Positions 23,974 to 33,601 of a stretch of 64,000 bases of DNA are shown in pieces. The notes under the pieces are model-generated. The model was not told where the DNA came from. It did no database searches and saw only the letters and a program-made list of their open reading frames with translations. The position numbers and the translations under genes are program-made. Within the stretch, counting starts at the first letter, position 1. Each line of letters starts with the position of its first letter. Source of the stretch: Rhodohalobacter sp. 614A. GTDB lineage: Bacteria; Bacteroidota; Rhodothermia; Balneolales; Balneolaceae. The DNA is taken from NCBI RefSeq assembly GCF_021462415.1, contig NZ_JAKEDS010000001.1, positions 840,273 to 904,272 on the forward strand, in the 5' to 3' direction.

Positions 23974-24699
23974 TTACCCTTTTCGTTTTCGCAGGTACAC
24001 ATCACCGCTAATAGATTCCAGCCGAAGCATGGGGCCGCCGCTTCCAATCTCTCCGCGAAGTTCATATCCCACATGAGGAAAAAACTCCTGGCGATTTTTA
24101 AAGCTCAGGTTTTCAAGATCGCTGTACGCTTCACCGGTAATTGTTTTGAGGGATATATCCGCACCGTTTCTGTCAGGCCAGCTTAAATCCACGAAGCCGC
24201 TGATGGATTTAGCATCAATCGGCCCGTTGAGGTCATAAAGCTCCACATCAGCGGAAATTGTTTCCAGTTGCAAATCGCTGTTTCGGGGCACATACAATTC
24301 AAATGTAATATTGCTGCAAACCACTTTATGTTTTTTGCCATCATTCCACGAGTAGGAACCATAGCTTCTGTCCGGGCAATCTTCTGCCCGGCCATCTTCC
24401 AGTTTATCTTTATCAAAATCTGTATCAATGCGGATTCCACTGTTGCCGTCGGAGTAATTTGCAACAAATGCATCATTCAGCTTGCCGCTATTAACTTCTA
24501 CTACCGCACGAAAAGATACTTCATTTCGGTCCCAGCCTTTTACAACAATACTATCACCAAATTTAAGATTCAGCCGAATCTTTTCTTCTGAATTGGCAGA
24601 GAATGTTTTTTCCACGATTCGCTGTTGAGCAAATATTTCCCCTGCCATCCATATACAACTCACAAAAACTGTAACGAGTAAAATCGCTGCCTTTTTCAT
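23974..24699 (-). CDS. Secreted DUF4097-like beta-solenoid protein
   Basis: 241 residues. A signal peptide ends at GEIFAQ, and the body is short beta repeats of the DUF4097/adhesin-like type (LQLETISADVELYDLNG, DAKSISGFVDLSWP, SLKTITGEAYSDLENL, LRLESISGDVYLRKRK). Two Cys (in DCPDRSY and VVCSN) could form a disulphide. It is the last gene of the minus-strand sigma/anti-sigma module. Its closest relative here by features is the 28775 gene, which also has a Cys-containing acidic insert before VPxN. Role inferred: periplasmic or surface effector or sensor under ECF control. Confidence 0.8.
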   Translation of the reverse strand: MKKAAILLVTVFVSCIWMAGEIFAQQRIVEKTFSANSEEKIRLNLKFGDSIVVKGWDRNEVSFRAVVEVNSGKLNDAFVANYSDGNSGIRIDTDFDKDKLEDGRAEDCPDRSYGSYSWNDGKKHKVVCSNITFELYVPRNSDLQLETISADVELYDLNGPIDAKSISGFVDLSWPDRNGADISLKTITGEAYSDLENLSFKNRQEFFPHVGYELRGEIGSGGPMLRLESISGDVYLRKRKG

Positions 24700-24764: not shown

Positions 24765-25556
24765 TTACTTGCCTCTCAGGTAAATATCTCCACTCACCGA
24801 CTTCAGCCTTACCTCAACGCCCCCGCCATTCAGCGTTCCGTTGATTTGTCCACTGCCGCCGAGACGTGTCATGTTGGTATTATTTTCGCGGCCTTCCAGT
24901 GCAATATCCAGGTCTGTGTAAACCTCCCCCGAAATGGAACCCAGGTTAAAATTTGCGCTGGCGTTTGCAGGAAGGGTGATGTCAATAAATCCGCTCACAA
25001 GAGAAATTGACGTTGGATTTGCCTGGCTGAGTTGCGAAAAGTCAATTTCCACATCGCCGCTTACACTACTTGCCGTTACCGGTCCGGTAATATTTGATAA
25101 ATTGATATTCCCGGTTTTGGATTGAATTTCAATTTCTCCGCTGTGGTCGCTGATTTCAAAATCGCCACCGCCAAAATTTACCTGTTCAATCATCAGCCGA
25201 ACACGATTGGGAATCTTGACTCGGTATTCGCTGTCATCCCGTGACGCAGGAATAATTTTAAGGATTCCGTTTTCTTCTTCAACAGACAGGCCAATACCGG
25301 TGTTGTCTTCTGCAGAGTAGTAAAGTGCCCGTAAACCTTCCGCCCGTTCGGGTCTGCTGTTCTGTTCATAATCAAGATTTTCGATAACCAATTCGGAGCC
25401 ATCATATCCTTCGATAGACACATCACTCTGGCCCACGGAAAATTCCACTGTCATTTCCGCGGAGTTTCCCAGGTCGTATCTGTATTCCTGTGCATTCGCT
25501 TGTTGTACCAAAAACATCAACAATACAGTTGCAATAAGTTTGATTGATTTTTTCAT
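24765..25556 (-). CDS. Secreted DUF4097-like beta-solenoid protein
   Basis: 263 residues. A signal peptide ends at QQANAQ. The body has repeating short strands (EIEIQSKTGNINLSNITG, VTASSVSGDVEIDFS, ISLVSGFIDITLPANA, NFNLGSISGEVYTDLDI) and ends LKSVSGDIYLRGK. It closely parallels the 29894 protein: ITLPANA, GEVYTD, NGGG and GDIYLR/GDIYIR are shared at matching places. It follows the anti-sigma gene after 159 bases that carry a family C repeat. Likely periplasmic or cell-surface; exact function unknown. Confidence 0.82.
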   Translation of the reverse strand: MKKSIKLIATVLLMFLVQQANAQEYRYDLGNSAEMTVEFSVGQSDVSIEGYDGSELVIENLDYEQNSRPERAEGLRALYYSAEDNTGIGLSVEEENGILKIIPASRDDSEYRVKIPNRVRLMIEQVNFGGGDFEISDHSGEIEIQSKTGNINLSNITGPVTASSVSGDVEIDFSQLSQANPTSISLVSGFIDITLPANASANFNLGSISGEVYTDLDIALEGRENNTNMTRLGGSGQINGTLNGGGVEVRLKSVSGDIYLRGK

Positions 25557-25650
25557 GATTCTTCTATTAAGTGTTTGTGTTTTGAATTTGTTTTTTGCGA
25601 CCTGTCAGCGCCACGCCACGAATACCGTCCCGAACTCTGACAGAACATTG

Positions 25651-25708
25651 ATGGCGCAAGCATCCTGCTTGTGACACGTGTTAGCACAAGCGAGACGCTT
25701 GCGCTATC
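25651..25708. repeat. Interspersed palindromic repeat, family C
   Basis: Two hairpins face each other: GCGCAAGC-ATCCT-GCTTGTG and GCACAAGC-GAGAC-GCTTGCGC, joined by ACACGTGT. This is a type of dispersed GCAAGC element seen in many bacterial genomes. It lies between the anti-sigma and DUF4097 genes. Confidence 0.65.
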
Positions 25709-25715
25709 CATTTAT

Positions 25716-26555
25716 TTACACTTTCAACTCGGCGATACTGCTTTCTAATCTCTGTTTTACAACGTCCTGCGTTTCTGTCCGGAGAAGCATTTTCTGCATT
25801 TCATTGACGGCAGATTTTTGCTTCATCTCTACCAGCATATCAATGAGGGTGATCTGCATGAGCGGGTCATTTTGTTGCGTTAAAGAATTTGTCAGGGCTT
25901 TCCCAATTCTCGGTTCATTTCTGAATTTGAACAGGGCTTCAGCCGCAGCCATCCGCACATTTACATTTTGATCATTATTCATCGTATAGATCAGGATGTC
26001 GGTAATTTCTGCATCCAGTTGAGGATTGCTTTGTTGCAATCTTGAACTGGAGAAGACTGCTGAAATTCGTTCACTCGCCGAAGCATTCTGAACCGAACCG
26101 TACATCAAGGCATTTTTCATCTGGCTGATTTCTTCCTGCATCGCCGCCAGTTGTTGATCAGACGCTCCTTCTTGTTGGTTGAGCAGGAGCCCTGCGGTTA
26201 ATCCGGTTAATACCAGGATGATGGCGGCGGCGGCGCGAAGGGTCCAGGTTATGAACGTTGACCGAGTGGTCATCAACCGACGACCGGCTGATGCCGAACT
26301 CTCTTCCTCCCGACGTTTCGGGACAGGCTCCTCAAAGGGAGATTCATTTTCCTGCTCTTCAATTTTGGCGAAGGGATCAATATTCGTTTCGGCTTTTTCC
26401 AATGTGTTCATGTAAGAGAACTGGTCGGTATAGCTCTTCAGGTGCGCCGGAATCTCTTCCTGCCGAAAGAACTCGCGCAGTTCCTTTTCTTCTTCGAGGG
26501 AGGATTCTCCTTCGAAGTATTTATCAAGCAGTTGTTCAATTCTTTCGGTGTTCAT
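25716..26555 (-). CDS. Anti-sigma-type membrane protein with periplasmic HEAT repeats
   Basis: 279 residues. The N-terminal ~105 residues are cytoplasmic and acidic (LLDKYFEGESSLEEEKELREFF, like the start of many Bacteroidota anti-sigma factors). One membrane helix spans about 110-130 (AAAAIILVLTGLTAGLLL), then a short coiled coil (LAAMQEEISQMKNAL), then HEAT-like repeats (NVNVRMAAAEALFKF). No HxxxCxxC zinc motif is present. It overlaps the sigma gene upstream by 20 bases. By context it holds the sigma factor inactive and senses an envelope signal through its HEAT part; that role is inferred. Confidence 0.82.
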   Translation of the reverse strand: MNTERIEQLLDKYFEGESSLEEEKELREFFRQEEIPAHLKSYTDQFSYMNTLEKAETNIDPFAKIEEQENESPFEEPVPKRREEESSASAGRRLMTTRSTFITWTLRAAAAIILVLTGLTAGLLLNQQEGASDQQLAAMQEEISQMKNALMYGSVQNASASERISAVFSSSRLQQSNPQLDAEITDILIYTMNNDQNVNVRMAAAEALFKFRNEPRIGKALTNSLTQQNDPLMQITLIDMLVEMKQKSAVNEMQKMLLRTETQDVVKQRLESSIAELKV

Positions 26556-27060
26556 AATTCTGATGCTTTAAGTATTCTTCGCGTACGGTTTTTCGGGCCC
26601 GCGAAAGATTAACCCGGATGGTGTTGACGGTCAGTCCCGTCATGTCACTAATTTCTTCGTATTCATAATGCTCCACATCCCGCAGGTGAATGATGAGCTT
26701 TTGCTGCTCGGGCAGCGTTTCAAAAATGGTGTGGATCGTTTTCAGGCTTTCACTGAGTTCCGTTTCCTGCGCCGGATCGGGACTCCCGGAATGAAGCGTC
26801 AGCGTTTCCACCTCTTCATTATTCTGATTACGATGTTTGTAGGATCGCAATTTATCCAGGCAGAGATTTTTCGTCATTGTCATTCCCAATGCTTCCACAC
26901 TGTTATATTCTGATAACCGACTCCGCATATTCCACAACTTCAGGAACGCATCCTGTAGCGTATCTTCGGCTTCCTGGCGATTCCCAAGAAGCGAAAAAGC
27001 TACTCTGAAAAATTTGTCCCGCGAAGGCAGAACCAGGTTTTTAAATTCTTGCTTTGTCAT
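26536..27060 (-). CDS. ECF RNA polymerase sigma factor
   Basis: 174 residues with sigma-70 region 2 (FSLLGNRQEAEDTLQDAFLK, then LCLDKLRSYKHRN) and region 4 (LPEQQKLIIHLRDVEHYEYE, then MTGLTVNTIRVNLSRARK). Regions 1 and 3 are missing, as expected for ECF sigma factors. It is followed, with a 20-base overlap, by its probable anti-sigma gene. A TGTAAT-N16-CGTCTG element ends about 10 bases before its ATG and fits an autoregulated ECF promoter. Confidence 0.95.
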   Translation of the reverse strand: MTKQEFKNLVLPSRDKFFRVAFSLLGNRQEAEDTLQDAFLKLWNMRSRLSEYNSVEALGMTMTKNLCLDKLRSYKHRNQNNEEVETLTLHSGSPDPAQETELSESLKTIHTIFETLPEQQKLIIHLRDVEHYEYEEISDMTGLTVNTIRVNLSRARKTVREEYLKHQNYEHRKN

Positions 27061-27070
27061 TTCTGTTGAT

Positions 27071-27098
27071 CAGACGAGTGGAATAGAATTTCATTACA
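27071..27098 (-). promoter_or_regulatory. Putative ECF promoter of the minus-strand sigma gene
   Basis: Read on the minus strand: TGTAAT, 16 bases, CGTCTG, then 10 bases to the ATG at 27060. Both hexamers are one base different from the element upstream of the DUF5916 gene (30775-30802), and spacing is identical. The transcript leader would be very short. Confidence 0.5.
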
Positions 27099-27121
27099 GG
27101 AGAGTACGAAATTTTTTCTTA

Positions 27122-27217
27122 GTCATTGCGAGTGAGCCTGCGATCGCGGCAATCTCTTGGTCTTAATTAGGATTCGGAAATTGCCGCGTCGTCGCTTTCA
27201 CTCCTCCTCGCAATGAC
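27122..27217. repeat. Interspersed palindromic repeat, family A
   Basis: Begins GTCATTGCGAG and ends CGCAATGAC; inner GGCAATCTC is mirrored by GAAATTGCCGC. A complete copy in the divergent sigma intergenic region. Confidence 0.8.
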
Positions 27218-27244
27218 AGGAAGTGGTTTCATGGGATTAATTTT

Positions 27245-27323
27245 GTCATTGCGAGCAAAGCGAAGCAATCTCCAAACTATAGAGGCTGGATATTATTACA
27301 GATACACGCCCCTTCGCAATGAC
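27245..27323. repeat. Interspersed palindromic repeat, family A
   Basis: Begins GTCATTGCGAGC, contains GAAGCAATCTCC and ends TTCGCAATGAC. Second complete copy in tandem with 27122-27217, 27 bases apart. Confidence 0.8.
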
Positions 27324-27337
27324 TTTAAAATTTTTTC

Positions 27338-27366
27338 TGTAACCTTTCACTACAGCAACAGTGTAT
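27338..27366 (+). promoter_or_regulatory. Putative ECF promoter of the plus-strand sigma gene
   Basis: TGTAAC, 16 bases, AGTGTA, then a few bases to the ATG at 27371. The -35-like hexamer is identical to that at 30775; the -10-like hexamer matches CGTCTA at four of six positions. The proximity to the ATG implies an almost leaderless transcript or a start further downstream (two Met codons at ~27428). Confidence 0.35.
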
Positions 27367-27370
27367 CCTC

Positions 27371-27964
27371 ATGAACAGGCTAACAAAAATATTTGATCGG
27401 TTGGATTCGAATTCGGATAACGCTTTAATGATGAAAGTAAGAGACGGCGATCTCGATAAACTCGGGTTGCTGTTTGAGCGATACAACCGTCGCCTGTTCG
27501 GGTTCTTTTACAGATTGACACACCGCCGCGATATCAGCGAGGATCTGGTTCAGGGTGTTTTTGAACGGATTCTGAAGTACCGCGAATCCTATAAAGGAGA
27601 CGGCGCTTTCTCAACATGGATTTTCCAGATCGCCCGAAATCTTCATATCGATTATTACCGGAAATATTCAAAAACCGATACGGAAGATGATTTTAGCGAC
27701 TGGGATTCTCTCGAAGCCGATGATTCAGAAATCAAACTGAAATCAGAAGATGAACGAAACCGGCTGCTTCTGAAACGGGCTTTGGATCAGTTGGATGAAG
27801 AGAAAAAGCAGACGCTTATTCTAAGCCGTTTCGAAGGATTCAAATACAAGGAGATCGCTGAGATTATGGATTGCACGGAAAGTGCCGTAAAAGTGCGGGT
27901 GTTCAGGGGCATTAACGAATTGAAGGAGATTGTTTCTGATCTCAAAAAAGAGGAAGAATTATGA
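27371..27964 (+). CDS. ECF RNA polymerase sigma factor
   Basis: 197 residues. Region 2 (LGLLFERYNRRLFGFFYRL, DISEDLVQGVFERILKYR, FSTWIFQIARNLHIDYYRK) and region 4 (LDEEKKQTLILSRFEGFKYKE, then MDCTESAVKVRVFRG) are both intact. A ~20-residue N-terminal lead precedes region 2, so a start at the MM pair near residue 20 is possible. It overlaps the anti-sigma gene by four bases (ATGA). It is only distantly similar to the minus-strand sigma factor, so the two likely recognise related but not identical promoters. Confidence 0.94.
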   Translation: MNRLTKIFDRLDSNSDNALMMKVRDGDLDKLGLLFERYNRRLFGFFYRLTHRRDISEDLVQGVFERILKYRESYKGDGAFSTWIFQIARNLHIDYYRKYSKTDTEDDFSDWDSLEADDSEIKLKSEDERNRLLLKRALDQLDEEKKQTLILSRFEGFKYKEIAEIMDCTESAVKVRVFRGINELKEIVSDLKKEEEL

Positions 27965-28761
27965 TTGATGAAAAATATATCGACTTAGTGACCGGATATC
28001 TTCAGAATGACCTGAATCCGGATCAAAAAAACAAACTGGAGGAGCTGATTGAGTCCGGCGAGATCGATCTGCTGGATCTGAAAGAGATGGAAATGATGTA
28101 CGGAAAAATGAGCTCAATTGATATCCCCCAAGCAAGTCCGGCCATGCACGATCGGTTTTATGCTATGCTGGAAAAAGAAAAACAGACTCAATCGGTCAGC
28201 TGGTCTCATAAACTGAATACCTGGATGGATCAACAGAAAAACCGTTTTGAGTTGCGTTATGTGGTTTACGCCGCAGCCATTTTTCTGGCAGGCATTTTCC
28301 TGGGGGATTTATATGCTCCGTTCAGTAAACAAGATGATCAGATTGACCAACTCAGCGCCGAAGTTTCCCAAATGCGTGAAGTGATGATGATCAGCCTGCT
28401 GGATAATTCTTCTCCAATGGAACGGCTTAAAGCCGTCAACATCAGCACCGAAATCCAATCTGCGGATGACCGAATTGTGAATGCTCTTTTGAAGACCTTG
28501 AATAACGACACTAATGTGAATGTTCGCGTAGCGGCTGTAGAAGCACTAACTGCTCACGCTGCGAATCCGTCTGTACGAACGGGGTTGATCAATTCGATTG
28601 CCAACCAGGAATCGCCCATCGTTCAGGCCGCTTTGGCTGATGCAATGCTGGCCCTGCAGGAAAAACAGTCGGTGGATGAATTCAAAAAACTCCTTGCCAA
28701 AGACGAATTGGATATGAACGTCCGAAACAAATTGGAAAATACGATTGCGGCATTAAACTAA
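27961..28761 (+). CDS. Anti-sigma-type membrane protein with periplasmic HEAT repeats
   Basis: 266 residues with the same layout as the 25716 protein: acidic cytoplasmic N-terminus (YIDLVTGYLQNDLNPDQKNK), membrane helix about 97-115 (VVYAAAIFLAGIFLGDLY), short coiled coil (DQIDQLSAEVSQMREVMM) and HEAT-like repeats (NDTNVNVRVAAVEALTAH). Shared runs such as NVNVR.AA.EAL show paralogy. There is no zinc-binding CxxC motif. ATGA overlap with the sigma gene supports a sigma/anti-sigma pair. The sensing role of the periplasmic HEAT part is inferred. Confidence 0.82.
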   Translation: MIDEKYIDLVTGYLQNDLNPDQKNKLEELIESGEIDLLDLKEMEMMYGKMSSIDIPQASPAMHDRFYAMLEKEKQTQSVSWSHKLNTWMDQQKNRFELRYVVYAAAIFLAGIFLGDLYAPFSKQDDQIDQLSAEVSQMREVMMISLLDNSSPMERLKAVNISTEIQSADDRIVNALLKTLNNDTNVNVRVAAVEALTAHAANPSVRTGLINSIANQESPIVQAALADAMLALQEKQSVDEFKKLLAKDELDMNVRNKLENTIAALN

Positions 28762-28774
28762 AATCGGAGCCAAA

Positions 28775-29815
28775 ATGAAATTATACAGCATAACAACACC
28801 TTTTCTACAATTATTCTGTCCCGGCCGGGACAGTAGGTTTGTAGTAACAAACAAACCGAATCAAACCCCTATTGTCCCGGAGGGGACAGTATATTTCCGT
28901 GGGATTCTGAAGAATATCGCAGATTATCGATTCCAAATCTTAAAAATGGTTCTTCTCATTTCAGGATTCGTATTCATGTTTTCTCCATCAGCATCCGCCC
29001 AAACCTTCTCTGAAACCATAAAGGAAACAGTCCGATTCCAAAACATAAATAGTTCAGAAAATGAGCTATACATCCACAACATTAATGGAAATGTGACGGT
29101 AGAAGGCTACAACGGCGATGAGATTCAAATCACCTATCACAAAAAAATTGACGCGGATACCCAGCGCGATCTTGACCGGGCTATAGAGGAAGTAGAATTT
29201 ATCCTCGAGGAAGAAAGCAATCGCATTCTGATTTACCTGGATGCCCCCTTTATTTGTGTAAAAAAACGCGATGGCAAGATCAGTTATAACATCAATGACT
29301 GGGATGATGATTACGATTTTATGTTCGACATCTCCATTCGGGTTCCACAAAATACAAACCTGGATGTATCTACCATCAACAATGGAAGAGTTCTTGTAGA
29401 GAACATCCATTCAAAGTGGCTCGATGTCTCGAATATTAATGGCTCAGTGGAACTTGGGAATGTAGCCGGCATTACGGACGCCAAGACTATTAATGGAGAT
29501 ATCACGGCGAGTTATAGAGAAAATCCTTCCGGCGATTCATCCTTTGAAACCATTAATGGCACCATTGAAGTGATGTTTCCGGAGAATCTTTCCGCAGATA
29601 TCACCTTCAAAAGCATGCACGGAGATCTCTATACCGATTTCAAAAATGTGCAACGCCTCCAGGCCCGGGTGGAATCGAGCGAGGAACGGGGTCACGGAAA
29701 AACCACGTATCGCATCGACAAATTTGCACCGCTTCGCATCGGTAACGGCGGACCCACTTTCAAATTTGAAGTATTGAATGGGGATGTCTACGTCAAACGA
29801 AACAGAGCAACTTAA
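28775..29815 (+). CDS. Secreted DUF4097-like beta-solenoid protein, with repeat-derived N-terminal extension
   Basis: 346 residues from ATG 28775, which has CGGAG upstream and lies 13 bases after the anti-sigma stop. A palindromic repeat falls inside codons 14-39, and the signal peptide (LLISGFVFMFSPSASAQ) begins only near residue 58. ATG 28946 would give a normal signal peptide and a 289-residue protein. The body carries DUF4097-type repeats (LDVSTINNGRVLVENI, WLDVSNINGSVELGNVAG, DAKTINGDITASY, ADITFKSMHGDLYTDF) and ends FEVLNGDVYVKRN. Probably periplasmic or surface; function unknown. Confidence 0.75.
   Translation: MKLYSITTPFLQLFCPGRDSRFVVTNKPNQTPIVPEGTVYFRGILKNIADYRFQILKMVLLISGFVFMFSPSASAQTFSETIKETVRFQNINSSENELYIHNINGNVTVEGYNGDEIQITYHKKIDADTQRDLDRAIEEVEFILEEESNRILIYLDAPFICVKKRDGKISYNINDWDDDYDFMFDISIRVPQNTNLDVSTINNGRVLVENIHSKWLDVSNINGSVELGNVAGITDAKTINGDITASYRENPSGDSSFETINGTIEVMFPENLSADITFKSMHGDLYTDFKNVQRLQARVESSEERGHGKTTYRIDKFAPLRIGNGGPTFKFEVLNGDVYVKRNRAT
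28816..28889. repeat. Palindromic repeat inside the 5' end of a DUF4097 gene
   Basis: A perfect 18-base palindrome, CTGTCCCGGCCGGGACAG (28816-28833), is followed by a GGTTTGT/ACAAACC pair and a second hairpin TGTCCC-GGAGG-GGACAG (28873-28889, one base off perfect). It has the look of a dispersed repeat that landed between the upstream ATG and the signal-peptide region. Confidence 0.65.
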
Positions 29816-29893
29816 TAAACAGATTCGCAAGACCTGAGAATATAATGACAAAGCACTCAAAAAATTCAATATCAATAACACAACAGCAACATT

Positions 29894-30691
29894 ATGAAAA
29901 CGTATAAACTTTTATTCACCCTTTTATTGACCTTTGTTCTTGGTGTGGTTTCATCCTTAGCTCAGGAACGGGTTGTGATTCCTTTAAGCAATCCCGGAGA
30001 GCCCGGCCAGCTTGAACTTGGAATTGTGCGCGGTTCCATCAGCGTAGTGGCTACCGATGGAGAAGAAGTGGTTATCAACTATTCATCCGGCGAGAGCCGT
30101 AATGATAGTCCACAAGAGAAAAACGGGCTTCGCCGAATTTCTGATAGCTCCGTGGGATTTGAAGTCACCGAAAACGATAATGAAATAGAAATTGGCGGAG
30201 CGTCTCCTCATGCAGATGTCAATTTCTCCATTTCTGTTCCGCGAAATTTCTCGCTCTATCTTTCTACCGTAAATGGCGGTGATGTGAATGTAGAAGGCGT
30301 TCGCGGCGAGATGGAAATCAGCAATGTAAATGGGGATGTAACTCTATCCAACGTAGGCGGCTCGGCATCTGTCAACACTGTAAATGGGGATATTGCCGCT
30401 TCATTTAACAGTATCGGGGATAACCCTATGGCGTTTACCACTGTCCAGGGCGATATTGATATTACACTTCCGGCCAATGCCAAAGTAACGGCAAAGATGC
30501 GATCGGAGTGGGGAGAAGTGTATACGGATTTTGAAATGAATATCGACCGCTCGAACAGGGAGAGTATTGAAGCGGATTCGGATGTATACAAAGTTTCCGT
30601 CAACAACTGGATAAATGGCCGGATAAACGGTGGCGGACCGGAATATATGTTCAAAACCCTTCGGGGCGATATTTATATCAGGAAGCAATAA
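29894..30691 (+). CDS. Secreted DUF4097-like beta-solenoid protein
   Basis: 265 residues. A signal peptide ends near VVSSLAQ. The repeating strands read FSLYLSTVNGGDVNVEG, EMEISNVNGDVTLSNVGG, ASVNTVNGDIAASF, FTTVQGDIDITLPANA and end MFKTLRGDIYIRKQ. It is the counterpart of the 24765 protein (ITLPANA, EVYTD, NGGG, GDIY shared). It is the last gene of the plus module; a hairpin follows at 30709. Likely an envelope protein regulated by the adjacent sigma factor. Confidence 0.82.
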   Translation: MKTYKLLFTLLLTFVLGVVSSLAQERVVIPLSNPGEPGQLELGIVRGSISVVATDGEEVVINYSSGESRNDSPQEKNGLRRISDSSVGFEVTENDNEIEIGGASPHADVNFSISVPRNFSLYLSTVNGGDVNVEGVRGEMEISNVNGDVTLSNVGGSASVNTVNGDIAASFNSIGDNPMAFTTVQGDIDITLPANAKVTAKMRSEWGEVYTDFEMNIDRSNRESIEADSDVYKVSVNNWINGRINGGGPEYMFKTLRGDIYIRKQ

Positions 30692-30708
30692 CCAAATTGT
30701 CCTCTAAT

Positions 30709-30747
30709 CCTTGCAGGATTCCCTTGGCTTTTTGGGATCCTGCAAGG
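30709..30747 (+). terminator. Strong hairpin ending the plus-strand ECF module
   Basis: CCTTGCAGGAT pairs perfectly with ATCCTGCAAGG, extended by CCC/GGG with one bulge. It starts 18 bases after the stop. The T tract is weak, so it may be partial or Rho-assisted. Confidence 0.55.
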
Positions 30748-30774
30748 TATTCAATCTAATAAATTCAAGGCGTG

Positions 30775-30802
30775 TGTAACAGAACCATCCTTCACTCGTC
30801 TA
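30775..30802 (+). promoter_or_regulatory. Putative ECF promoter of the DUF5916 gene
   Basis: TGTAAC, 16 bases, CGTCTA: the classic ECF-type -35/-10 arrangement. It is 40 bases before the ATG at 30842. Near-identical elements with the same spacing lie upstream of both sigma genes. Confidence 0.6.
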
Positions 30803-30841: not shown

Positions 30842-33601
30842 ATGCTATCAGCCAAAGCTGTATCATTCACACTTTTTGCTCTCATTTTGATACTCCCGTT
30901 CAGTGCCGCTTTCTCCCAGGAAGTTTCCACGATGGATACTACCGATGAAAACATCAGCTCCATTCCAATCAAATCCATCCGAAGCCTGCGTGTACCTGCT
31001 TCTGAGGCTATACATCTGGATGGCAAGCTGGTTGAAGACACCTGGCAACAAACGCCTATAGCTACAGATTTTGTGCAGCGAGTCCCTAATGATGGTATGC
31101 CGGCAACGGAAAGAACAGAAGCCCGGGTGATTTATACGGAAGAAGCCATTTATGTGGGAGCCCGCGCTTACGATTCCGCCATGGATTCTGTGGCCGCCAC
31201 ACTTTTCCGAAAAGATGGTACAGCTTACAGCGATTGGTTTTATGTGATCATCGACAGTTATAACGACAACCGAACCGGTTTTTCGTTTGCCGTAAACCCT
31301 AAAGGTGTAAGAAAAGACATATTGCTTTATGATGATAACAACGAAGACATCCGCTGGGATGCCGTTTGGGAAGCAGCCACTTCCATTGATGAAGACGGCT
31401 GGACGGTTGAGATGAGGATACCGCTTTCTCAACTCCGTTTTAGCCCCACACAAAATGGCGAAGAAACGGAATGGGGAATCAATTTTCAGAGGCGCGTTGC
31501 CCGAAACGAAGAAATCTCATTTTGGTCACCCACACCCCAAACCGAATCCGGTTTTGTTTCGCGGTTCGGTCAATTGGAAGGAATTCGTGAACTTGAATCG
31601 CCGCGCCGGTTAGAGGTCAACCCCTATGTTTCATCGAACCTGACCCGAACACCGGGCGAAAGCTCAAACCCGTTTTACAATCAAAATGATCTTGGAGGAT
31701 CGATTGGTGCAGATATCAAGTATGGGCTAACATCCGACCTGACTCTGACGGCTACAATAAACCCGGACTTTGGCCAGGTAGAGGCCGATCCGGCGGTTAT
31801 TAATCTTAGCGCTTATGAAACATACTTCGATGAACAGCGACCTTTCTTCCTGGAAGGAAATGAGATTTTCCAATTTGGCCGCACCCGAACATACAACACA
31901 TTCGGGAATCCTCTCACATTCTACTCCCGCCGGATTGGACGGGCGCCACAGGGAAGTCTGGACAGCTACAACAGCTACCAAAATGAATCGCTTTACAACC
32001 CTGATGATGTTGATGATCTTTATACAAATCTGCCCGATCAAACCACCATTGCCGCTGCTGCAAAAGTAAGCGGAAAAACCAGATCCGGATGGTCGGTCGG
32101 TTTGCTGAACGCCTTTACCACACGTGAATCATCCCCTTATCAAATAGAAGCCAATGGACCGGATGGAGATTTTACGGTAGAACCGACCACGAATTACCTG
32201 GTTGCCAGAACAAAAAAAGATATCAATGGCGGTAACAGTGTATTCGGAGGATTTTTCAGCGCTGCCAATCGTGATGTCAGCAATACCTATTTTGAAGATT
32301 TTCTTCACTCCTCCGCTTACCTTGCCGGGGTTGATTTTGAGCACAACTGGAACGATCGGGACTGGGTTGCCAGCGGTACTTTTTCCGCCAGCCAGGTGAA
32401 CGGTTCGGCCGAAGCGATCGAGGAAACCCAAAAATCATCCGCAAGGTATTTTAACAGGGTGGATTCGGATAAGCTGAATCTCGATCCCGAAAAAAACAGC
32501 CTCAACGGTTTTGCCACAGAAGTTAGTTTGCAAAAACGCGGTGGAGAACACTGGCGGTCATCACTCACCTATTCGGAGGTAAGCCCCGGTTATGAAGTAA
32601 ACGACCTTGGTTTTGAAAACCGCGCAGACTACAGGGCCCTGGCCGGTGGGCTGATCTACGTAGAGAGTGCTCCCTCGTTTATGCGATACTACGAATTCTG
32701 GACATTTGAAATGTTTGCATGGAATTATGATGGAAACATCACTGGAAATTATTACAATACCGGTACTTTTATGAGGTTCAAGAACCTGTGGACATTCAAC
32801 TTTAATTTCAATTACACGGGGAAAACTTACAATGACCGCCTCACCCGTGGCGGACCTATTGCCAGCCGGCCGAAAGACTGGAACTTCAACTTCAACATTC
32901 GTTCCGATCAAACAAAAAAAGTCTCGTATGGCATTGGCGGATTTTACAGGAATGAATTTAACAGTTACGAAATCGACCGGCGGTTTTGGGGTTTCATTGA
33001 GTTTCGGCCAACCACTTATATCCAGCTGGAAATTTCTCCGGAATTCGGGTGGGAAATTGAAAGTGATCAATACGTAACCGATGTGGAAGACGAACTTGCC
33101 ACCCATACATTTGGGACACGCTACGTTTTTTCAGACCTGGATTTGACCTACCTTTCTACCAGCATCCGTCTGGATTGGACATTTACACCGGATATGAGTC
33201 TTCAGTTTTACGCACGGCCGTATATCAACTCCGGGAATTTCTATAACTTCAAAGAGTTCTCCACCCCAAGAGAATATGAGTTTGATGTGTACGGAGAGGA
33301 GAGGGGAACCATCACCTATTCGAACGAAGATGAAGAATATACCGTCGATCCGGATGGTGACGGAACGGCCGAATCATTTACCTTTTCAGAACGCGATTAT
33401 AATTTCAGGTCCATCCAGGGAAATACGGTTTTTCGATGGGAATACCGGCCCGGATCCACACTCTTTCTCGTTTGGCAGCACGACCGATCCAGCGACGGCA
33501 GTGAAGATAACTTCCGGTTTAGCCGCGATTTCCGAAACCTGTTTGATTCCGAGCCTACCAATATTTTCCTTGTGAAGCTGAGTTATTGGTTTGGGAGTTG
33601 A
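30842..33601 (+). CDS. DUF5916 outer-membrane protein with N-terminal CBM9-like domain
   Basis: 919 residues. After a signal peptide (ending AAFSQ) comes a CBM9-like domain (IHLDGKLVEDTWQQTP, WTVEMRIPLSQLRF, WGINFQRRVARNEE) at ~50-235, then DUF5916. The rest is rich in aromatic-alternating strands (RFFNFNFNYTGKT-like segments such as WTFNFNFNYTGKTYNDR) and ends with ...KLSYWFGS, a C-terminal aromatic strand suited to BAM insertion. It is probably an outer-membrane barrel binding carbohydrate or other polymer; substrate is unknown. It follows the plus ECF module and has its own ECF-like promoter element. Confidence 0.9.
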   Translation: MLSAKAVSFTLFALILILPFSAAFSQEVSTMDTTDENISSIPIKSIRSLRVPASEAIHLDGKLVEDTWQQTPIATDFVQRVPNDGMPATERTEARVIYTEEAIYVGARAYDSAMDSVAATLFRKDGTAYSDWFYVIIDSYNDNRTGFSFAVNPKGVRKDILLYDDNNEDIRWDAVWEAATSIDEDGWTVEMRIPLSQLRFSPTQNGEETEWGINFQRRVARNEEISFWSPTPQTESGFVSRFGQLEGIRELESPRRLEVNPYVSSNLTRTPGESSNPFYNQNDLGGSIGADIKYGLTSDLTLTATINPDFGQVEADPAVINLSAYETYFDEQRPFFLEGNEIFQFGRTRTYNTFGNPLTFYSRRIGRAPQGSLDSYNSYQNESLYNPDDVDDLYTNLPDQTTIAAAAKVSGKTRSGWSVGLLNAFTTRESSPYQIEANGPDGDFTVEPTTNYLVARTKKDINGGNSVFGGFFSAANRDVSNTYFEDFLHSSAYLAGVDFEHNWNDRDWVASGTFSASQVNGSAEAIEETQKSSARYFNRVDSDKLNLDPEKNSLNGFATEVSLQKRGGEHWRSSLTYSEVSPGYEVNDLGFENRADYRALAGGLIYVESAPSFMRYYEFWTFEMFAWNYDGNITGNYYNTGTFMRFKNLWTFNFNFNYTGKTYNDRLTRGGPIASRPKDWNFNFNIRSDQTKKVSYGIGGFYRNEFNSYEIDRRFWGFIEFRPTTYIQLEISPEFGWEIESDQYVTDVEDELATHTFGTRYVFSDLDLTYLSTSIRLDWTFTPDMSLQFYARPYINSGNFYNFKEFSTPREYEFDVYGEERGTITYSNEDEEYTVDPDGDGTAESFTFSERDYNFRSIQGNTVFRWEYRPGSTLFLVWQHDRSSDGSEDNFRFSRDFRNLFDSEPTNIFLVKLSYWFGS

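Follow-up and report, generated by a model that had tools for sequence, protein, structure and literature searches.

A putative sigM promoter element recurs before a DUF5916 gene within a neighbouring ECF sigma operon in Rhodohalobacter sp. 614A

ECF sigma factors are generally characterized by promoters with AAC and CGT elements, an adjacent anti-sigma factor and autoregulation (PMC8103513), and mapping in Flavobacterium psychrophilum has yielded an ECF-type motif with a CGT -10 (PMC9723704). Toastrack proteins are recurrent in envelope-stress modules, and links between Toastrack operons and sigma factors have been noted (PMC11237479). Porphyromonas gingivalis W83 has six ECF factors, PG0214 among them (PMC9862357); judging from locus order, PG0214 is probably PGN_0319 (SigCH). 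The published P. gingivalis ECF studies that were consulted give no promoter motif for PG0214, and none was found for the PG0214 family in the literature searched, in which few subscription journals were covered.

We analysed a 64,000-nt stretch (the window) of the 4.69-Mb genome of Rhodohalobacter sp. 614A (G000), in which two ECF sigma operons are divergent neighbours, arranged head to head (Table 1). The minus-strand operon contains, in order, sigM, a gene for a HEAT-repeat membrane protein and genes for two Toastrack-type proteins, the second of which has no Pfam match of its own. The plus-strand operon contains sigP, the gene of a homologous HEAT-repeat protein, two Toastrack genes and, in last position, a DUF5916 gene. 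Both sigma factors have sigma regions 2 and 4 only (Pfam). The NCBIfam NF058625 score of sigM lies far above the cut-off of 130, and a tree placed sigM inside the PG0214-family clade (support 92/96) and sigP outside it.

Table 1. Coordinates of the genes and promoter elements in the window
Feature	Position	Strand	Basis
sigM, ECF sigma factor of PG0214/GFO_1088 family	26536..27060	-	NF058625 212.9 bits; tree clade
Putative anti-sigma factor of sigM	25716..26555	-	Pfam HEAT_2; AlphaFold model; gene order in relatives
Toastrack (DUF4097) protein, sigM operon	24765..25556	-	PF13349 54.3 bits; order conserved
Second, divergent Toastrack-like protein, sigM operon	23974..24699	-	Same-place orthologs; distant homolog weakly PF13349
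sigP, second ECF sigma factor	27371..27964	+	Pfam sigma-70 regions 2 and 4
Putative anti-sigma factor of sigP, HEAT repeats	27961..28761	+	HEAT_2; homologous to sigM partner
Toastrack (DUF4097) protein, first of sigP operon	28775..29815	+	PF13349
Toastrack (DUF4097) protein, second of sigP operon	29894..30691	+	PF13349
DUF5916 protein	30842..33601	+	PF19313 239.9 bits; CBM9_1
Putative sigM promoter element TGTAAT-N16-CGTCTG	27071..27098	-	Exact match; conserved upstream of sigM
Putative DUF5916 internal promoter element TGTAAC-N16-CGTCTA (sigM motif)	30775..30802	+	Top window score; kept in relatives
Putative sigP promoter element TGTAACCTTT-N12-AGTGTA, separate motif	27338..27365	+	Conserved before sigP orthologs

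Compared with the described systems, sigM shares with the PG0214/GFO_1088 family its sequence and a putative autopromoter with 16-nt spacing. In many of the sampled members of that family the neighbours are a short anti-sigma-like gene and genes for small secreted proteins, whereas the sigM branch has a HEAT-repeat partner and two Toastracks, an arrangement also present in family members from two other Bacteroidota families of the sample (L249 and L262). An extra predicted target in a neighbouring operon is likewise a feature of the sigM branch. As in classical RpoE-type pairs, a sigma factor and a membrane partner share one operon with an AAC/CGT promoter, and positive feedback is expected; however, HEAT repeats stand in place of a known sensor domain, and the predicted target lies inside another sigma operon. 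Like Lia/Psp-type modules, the two operons link Toastrack (DUF4097) proteins to a regulator of envelope stress, but here an ECF sigma factor and its HEAT-repeat partner fill that role, the operons contain no two-component system or PspA, and the Toastrack proteins, unlike those of Lia/Psp-type modules, are seemingly exported (signal-like N-termini).

The AlphaFold model of the sigM partner comprises three N-terminal helices, one transmembrane-like helix and C-terminal HEAT repeats, a plausible anti-sigma topology. The protein did not match any anti-sigma family in Pfam, and a structure search with the model returned generic helical repeats only. The sigP partner is 35% identical to it over 172 residues. 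In most sigM-bearing relatives the partner gene lies directly downstream of sigM. The head-to-head arrangement was found in G000 and its congener G022 only, among the relatives examined; the sigM operon is separate from sigP in G077 and G106, and also in G049, where it is partial at a contig start.

In the sigM operon, palindromic repeat-like DNA (GGCGCAAGCATCCTGCTTG, AGCGAGACGCTTGCGCT; 25600-25740) fills the space that separates the anti-sigma gene from the Toastrack gene, and palindromic repeats (TGTCCCGGCCGGGACAG and similar) occur towards the 5' end of the first Toastrack gene on the plus strand (28810-28895). The predicted product of the latter gene has 346 residues, against 309 in the G022 ortholog, and its start codon may lie further downstream. 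Between the divergent sigma promoters (27109-27338) there are about 208 nt with GTCATTGCGAG inverted repeats, with the 11-bp direct repeat AAATTTTTTCT on either side; the insert is missing from the corresponding site in G022. At the counterpart of position 27401, most sigP orthologs show GTG or TTG followed by Asp/Asn-Ser, and the true start of sigP is probably the TTG at 27401 rather than 27371.

The initial annotation had proposed that one ECF promoter element precedes both sigma genes and the DUF5916 gene, and that at least one of the sigma factors autoregulates. The elements before sigM and DUF5916 were both present, and they were the only zero-mismatch occurrences of TGTAAY-N16-CGTCTR in the window. 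We then surveyed the PG0214 family across Bacteroidota, accepting up to two mismatches within 120 nt upstream at a 16-nt spacing, the only one tested, and found an element of this type just upstream of 45 of 50 family genes and in 0 of 150 control windows. Within the order of the window genome it precedes sigM in G000, G022, G049, G077, G106 and G122, and with one mismatch in G109; outside it, in Parabacteroides chinchillae, TGTTAT-N16-CGTCTT stands 10 nt ahead of the homolog's ATG, as read from the sequence. Trained on 46 upstream sites of the family, with the genus of the window left out, a matrix ranked the DUF5916 site first (21.8 bits) and the sigM site second (18.0 bits) among 127,946 window positions; the third-best position reached 10.5 bits, and the maxima of 25 simulated windows were 8.5-16.8 bits. 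Because the element is found upstream family-wide and the window sites take the top two ranks on an independent matrix, sigM very likely autoregulates through TGTAAT-N16-CGTCTG, which supports the proposal of autoregulation for this sigma factor. The -10 hexamer ends 10 nt before the sigM ATG (27060-27071); in several relatives this distance is 8-18 nt, which suggests that the transcript has a very short leader or none. Scans for intrinsic terminators and sigma-70 promoters gave nothing exceeding shuffled sequences.

The third element behaved differently. The string TGTAAC-N16-AGTGTA does precede sigP, but it spans 28 nt and so ends at 27365, not at 27366. Two mismatches must be allowed for it to be counted with the others, and at that tolerance the window has 13 matches against 9.7 expected; on the family matrix it scored 5.4 bits, a chance level that 13 window positions equalled or exceeded. 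The sigP orthologs of the order carry TGTAACCTTT-N12-AGTGTA shortly upstream, a minority with small variations. Of 17 genomes, 13 had a single match to the strict form of this pattern and four had none; the match was the sigP promoter in 12 of the 13 and lay elsewhere in G047. In G077 the sigP-type operon (L142) has several broken frames and no strict sigP promoter, and it looks decayed; the sigM operon of this genome is intact.

It could be argued that a single sigma factor, sigP, reads all three elements, which have TGTAAY and a 16-nt spacing in common; in one other genus (g13) the DUF5916 promoter has a AACCTTTT-like -35 resembling the sigP element. However, a sigP matrix gave sigP sites 19-41 bits, sigM sites 5.8 at most and DUF5916 promoters 6.9 at most, mostly below 0, and the window genome offers no further match to the strict sigP pattern. 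We regard this reading as very improbable. The near-expected number of matches, the low family-matrix score and the absence of cross-scoring between the sigP-site and sigM-site matrices also led us to reject the sigP element as a third copy of the sigM motif. Judged from sequence, the sigM/DUF5916 element and the conserved sigP element are two motifs, and the proposed three-way link is really a two-way link between sigM and DUF5916.

A genome-wide motif scan had been suggested as a check, with occurrence at chance frequency as the refuting outcome, and on raw numbers that outcome is almost reached. Exact N16 matches numbered 3 in the genome, compared with 1 for the reversed pattern, and in most genomes exact and reversed matches were about equally frequent, so that raw counts come close to chance. 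Counted in this way, the DUF5916 match might itself be taken for a coincidence; yet it has the top window score on the independent matrix, and its position is conserved in G022, G049 and G106, which makes coincidence a most improbable explanation. For a sigma factor of so few targets, the comparison of positions shows the raw count to be the wrong test, and with exact counts close to those of the control we rejected genome-wide counting as a decisive one. The significance of the predicted motif comes from conservation and position, not abundance. An extended CACTCGTCT core was also discarded as a search motif, with 6 genome matches against 8 in the control, and is useless alone. The third exact match in the genome (G000:C2:675996-676023) either overlaps the beginning of a reading frame or lies upstream of it. 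In G022, one of the exact matches falls within a Toastrack coding region. Neither of these two matches was considered further.

We then compared the DUF5916 promoter region across relatives. In G022 both the sigM and the DUF5916 sites are kept, the latter as TGTAAT-N16-CGTCTG, and its flanks are unalignable with those of the window, with identity at chance level (11/60 and 13/39 positions). The DUF5916 element is exact in G049 and has one mismatch in G106, both sigM-bearing genomes. G015 has sigP without sigM, and no element of this kind precedes its DUF5916 gene; G005, without sigM and sigP at the thresholds used, has one with a spacing of 18. Within the genus, the full motif tracks sigM (present in G000 and G022, absent from G015). 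On a sigM matrix, DUF5916 promoters scored 14.5-26.0 bits in sigM-bearing genomes and 6.7 on average in the others, a difference that is no independent test, as both groups are few and related. A rank test of these scores gave p = 0.004, which is indicative only, as relatedness was ignored and the sites were picked by similarity to an ECF promoter.

The main alternative is that the element before DUF5916, while a genuine ECF promoter, is read by another ECF sigma factor, or by several whose specificities overlap, and not specifically by sigM. The pattern is less tidy outside the genus. A promoter-like element of similar, drifting sequence recurs at the same internal place in about 20 relatives, most of them without sigM. 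In another genus, G040, G041, G043 and G045 have DUF5916 promoters of 16-19 bits on the sigM matrix and no PG0214-family sigma factor above the cut-off, so some other ECF sigma must read the promoters there, and such a factor could read the DUF5916 promoter of the window as well. The window genome offers many candidates (23 matches to the PG0214 family model at E <= 1e-20, one above the cut-off), the general ECF pattern has AAC at -35 and CGT at -10 (PMC8103513), and overlapping ECF regulons have been suggested for a flavobacterium (PMC9723704). Against this, the full motif follows sigM within the genus, the variant spacing in G005 included, and the PG0214-family matrix gives the DUF5916 site of the window a higher score than sigM's own site. 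Weighing both sides, we consider this alternative unlikely, though clearly less so than the readings set aside above. sigM is most likely the factor that drives DUF5916 here; of the original proposal, autoregulation of one sigma factor and the recurrence of its element before DUF5916 are supported, and a single element linking both sigma genes is not.

Other features of these regions were also noted. A strong hairpin (30709-30748) follows the second Toastrack gene and precedes the DUF5916 promoter. Several other genera have hairpins that are unrelated in sequence and are placed after the promoter, ahead of the ATG. Hairpin z-scores were -2.6 to -4.6 in eight genomes and unremarkable in most others. 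Genes for FtsX/MacB-like permeases, for a Toastrack-like protein and for an efflux membrane-fusion-like protein have the same promoter-like element immediately ahead of them; these genes were identified by eye from their sequence (L163 in G077, L177 and L168 in G106, L180 in G069 and L159 in G041). No sigM was found in G069 and G041.

The DUF5916 protein was predicted to have a signal sequence, a CBM9-like domain and a C-terminal outer-membrane barrel (Pfam PF19313 and CBM9_1). In its AlphaFold model (mean pLDDT 68), the N-terminal domain matched CBM9 and the C-terminal barrel matched outer-membrane barrels, which is in keeping with the initial proposal of an outer-membrane protein. DUF5916 is not named in the literature searched.

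The elements, their conservation and their separation into two motifs are read directly from the DNA. On this basis, sigM probably reads TGTAAY-N16-CGTCTR and drives both its own operon and DUF5916, with the sigP operon on a different element. In the model that we deduce for specificity, anti-sigma release and transcription, the membrane partner would release sigM, and freed sigM would feed back positively by transcribing its own operon, which comprises sigM, the HEAT-repeat anti-sigma factor and the two Toastrack proteins. It would also transcribe the DUF5916 barrel gene from the matching element inside the divergent neighbouring operon. sigP would transcribe its own operon from the different element and might reach DUF5916 perhaps by read-through only.

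The predicted autoregulated ECF promoter is a real and ordinary kind of arrangement; the uncommon twist is that the same putative promoter element stands before an outer-membrane barrel gene inside a neighbouring sigma operon. We hold it evenly balanced whether two related ECF/HEAT-anti-sigma/Toastrack envelope-stress modules, which other relatives have at separate locations, became head-to-head neighbours in this genus, with the DUF5916 gene that closes one operon carrying a promoter for the sigma factor of the other and control of DUF5916 apparently passing between sigma factors across the family. For a Bacteroidota sigma family found throughout the phylum, these results offer a promoter sequence that is precise and can be tested. 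They would also connect the uncharacterised DUF5916 family of outer-membrane barrels with an envelope-stress sigma factor, and may allow the drift of a promoter from one sigma factor to another to be traced.
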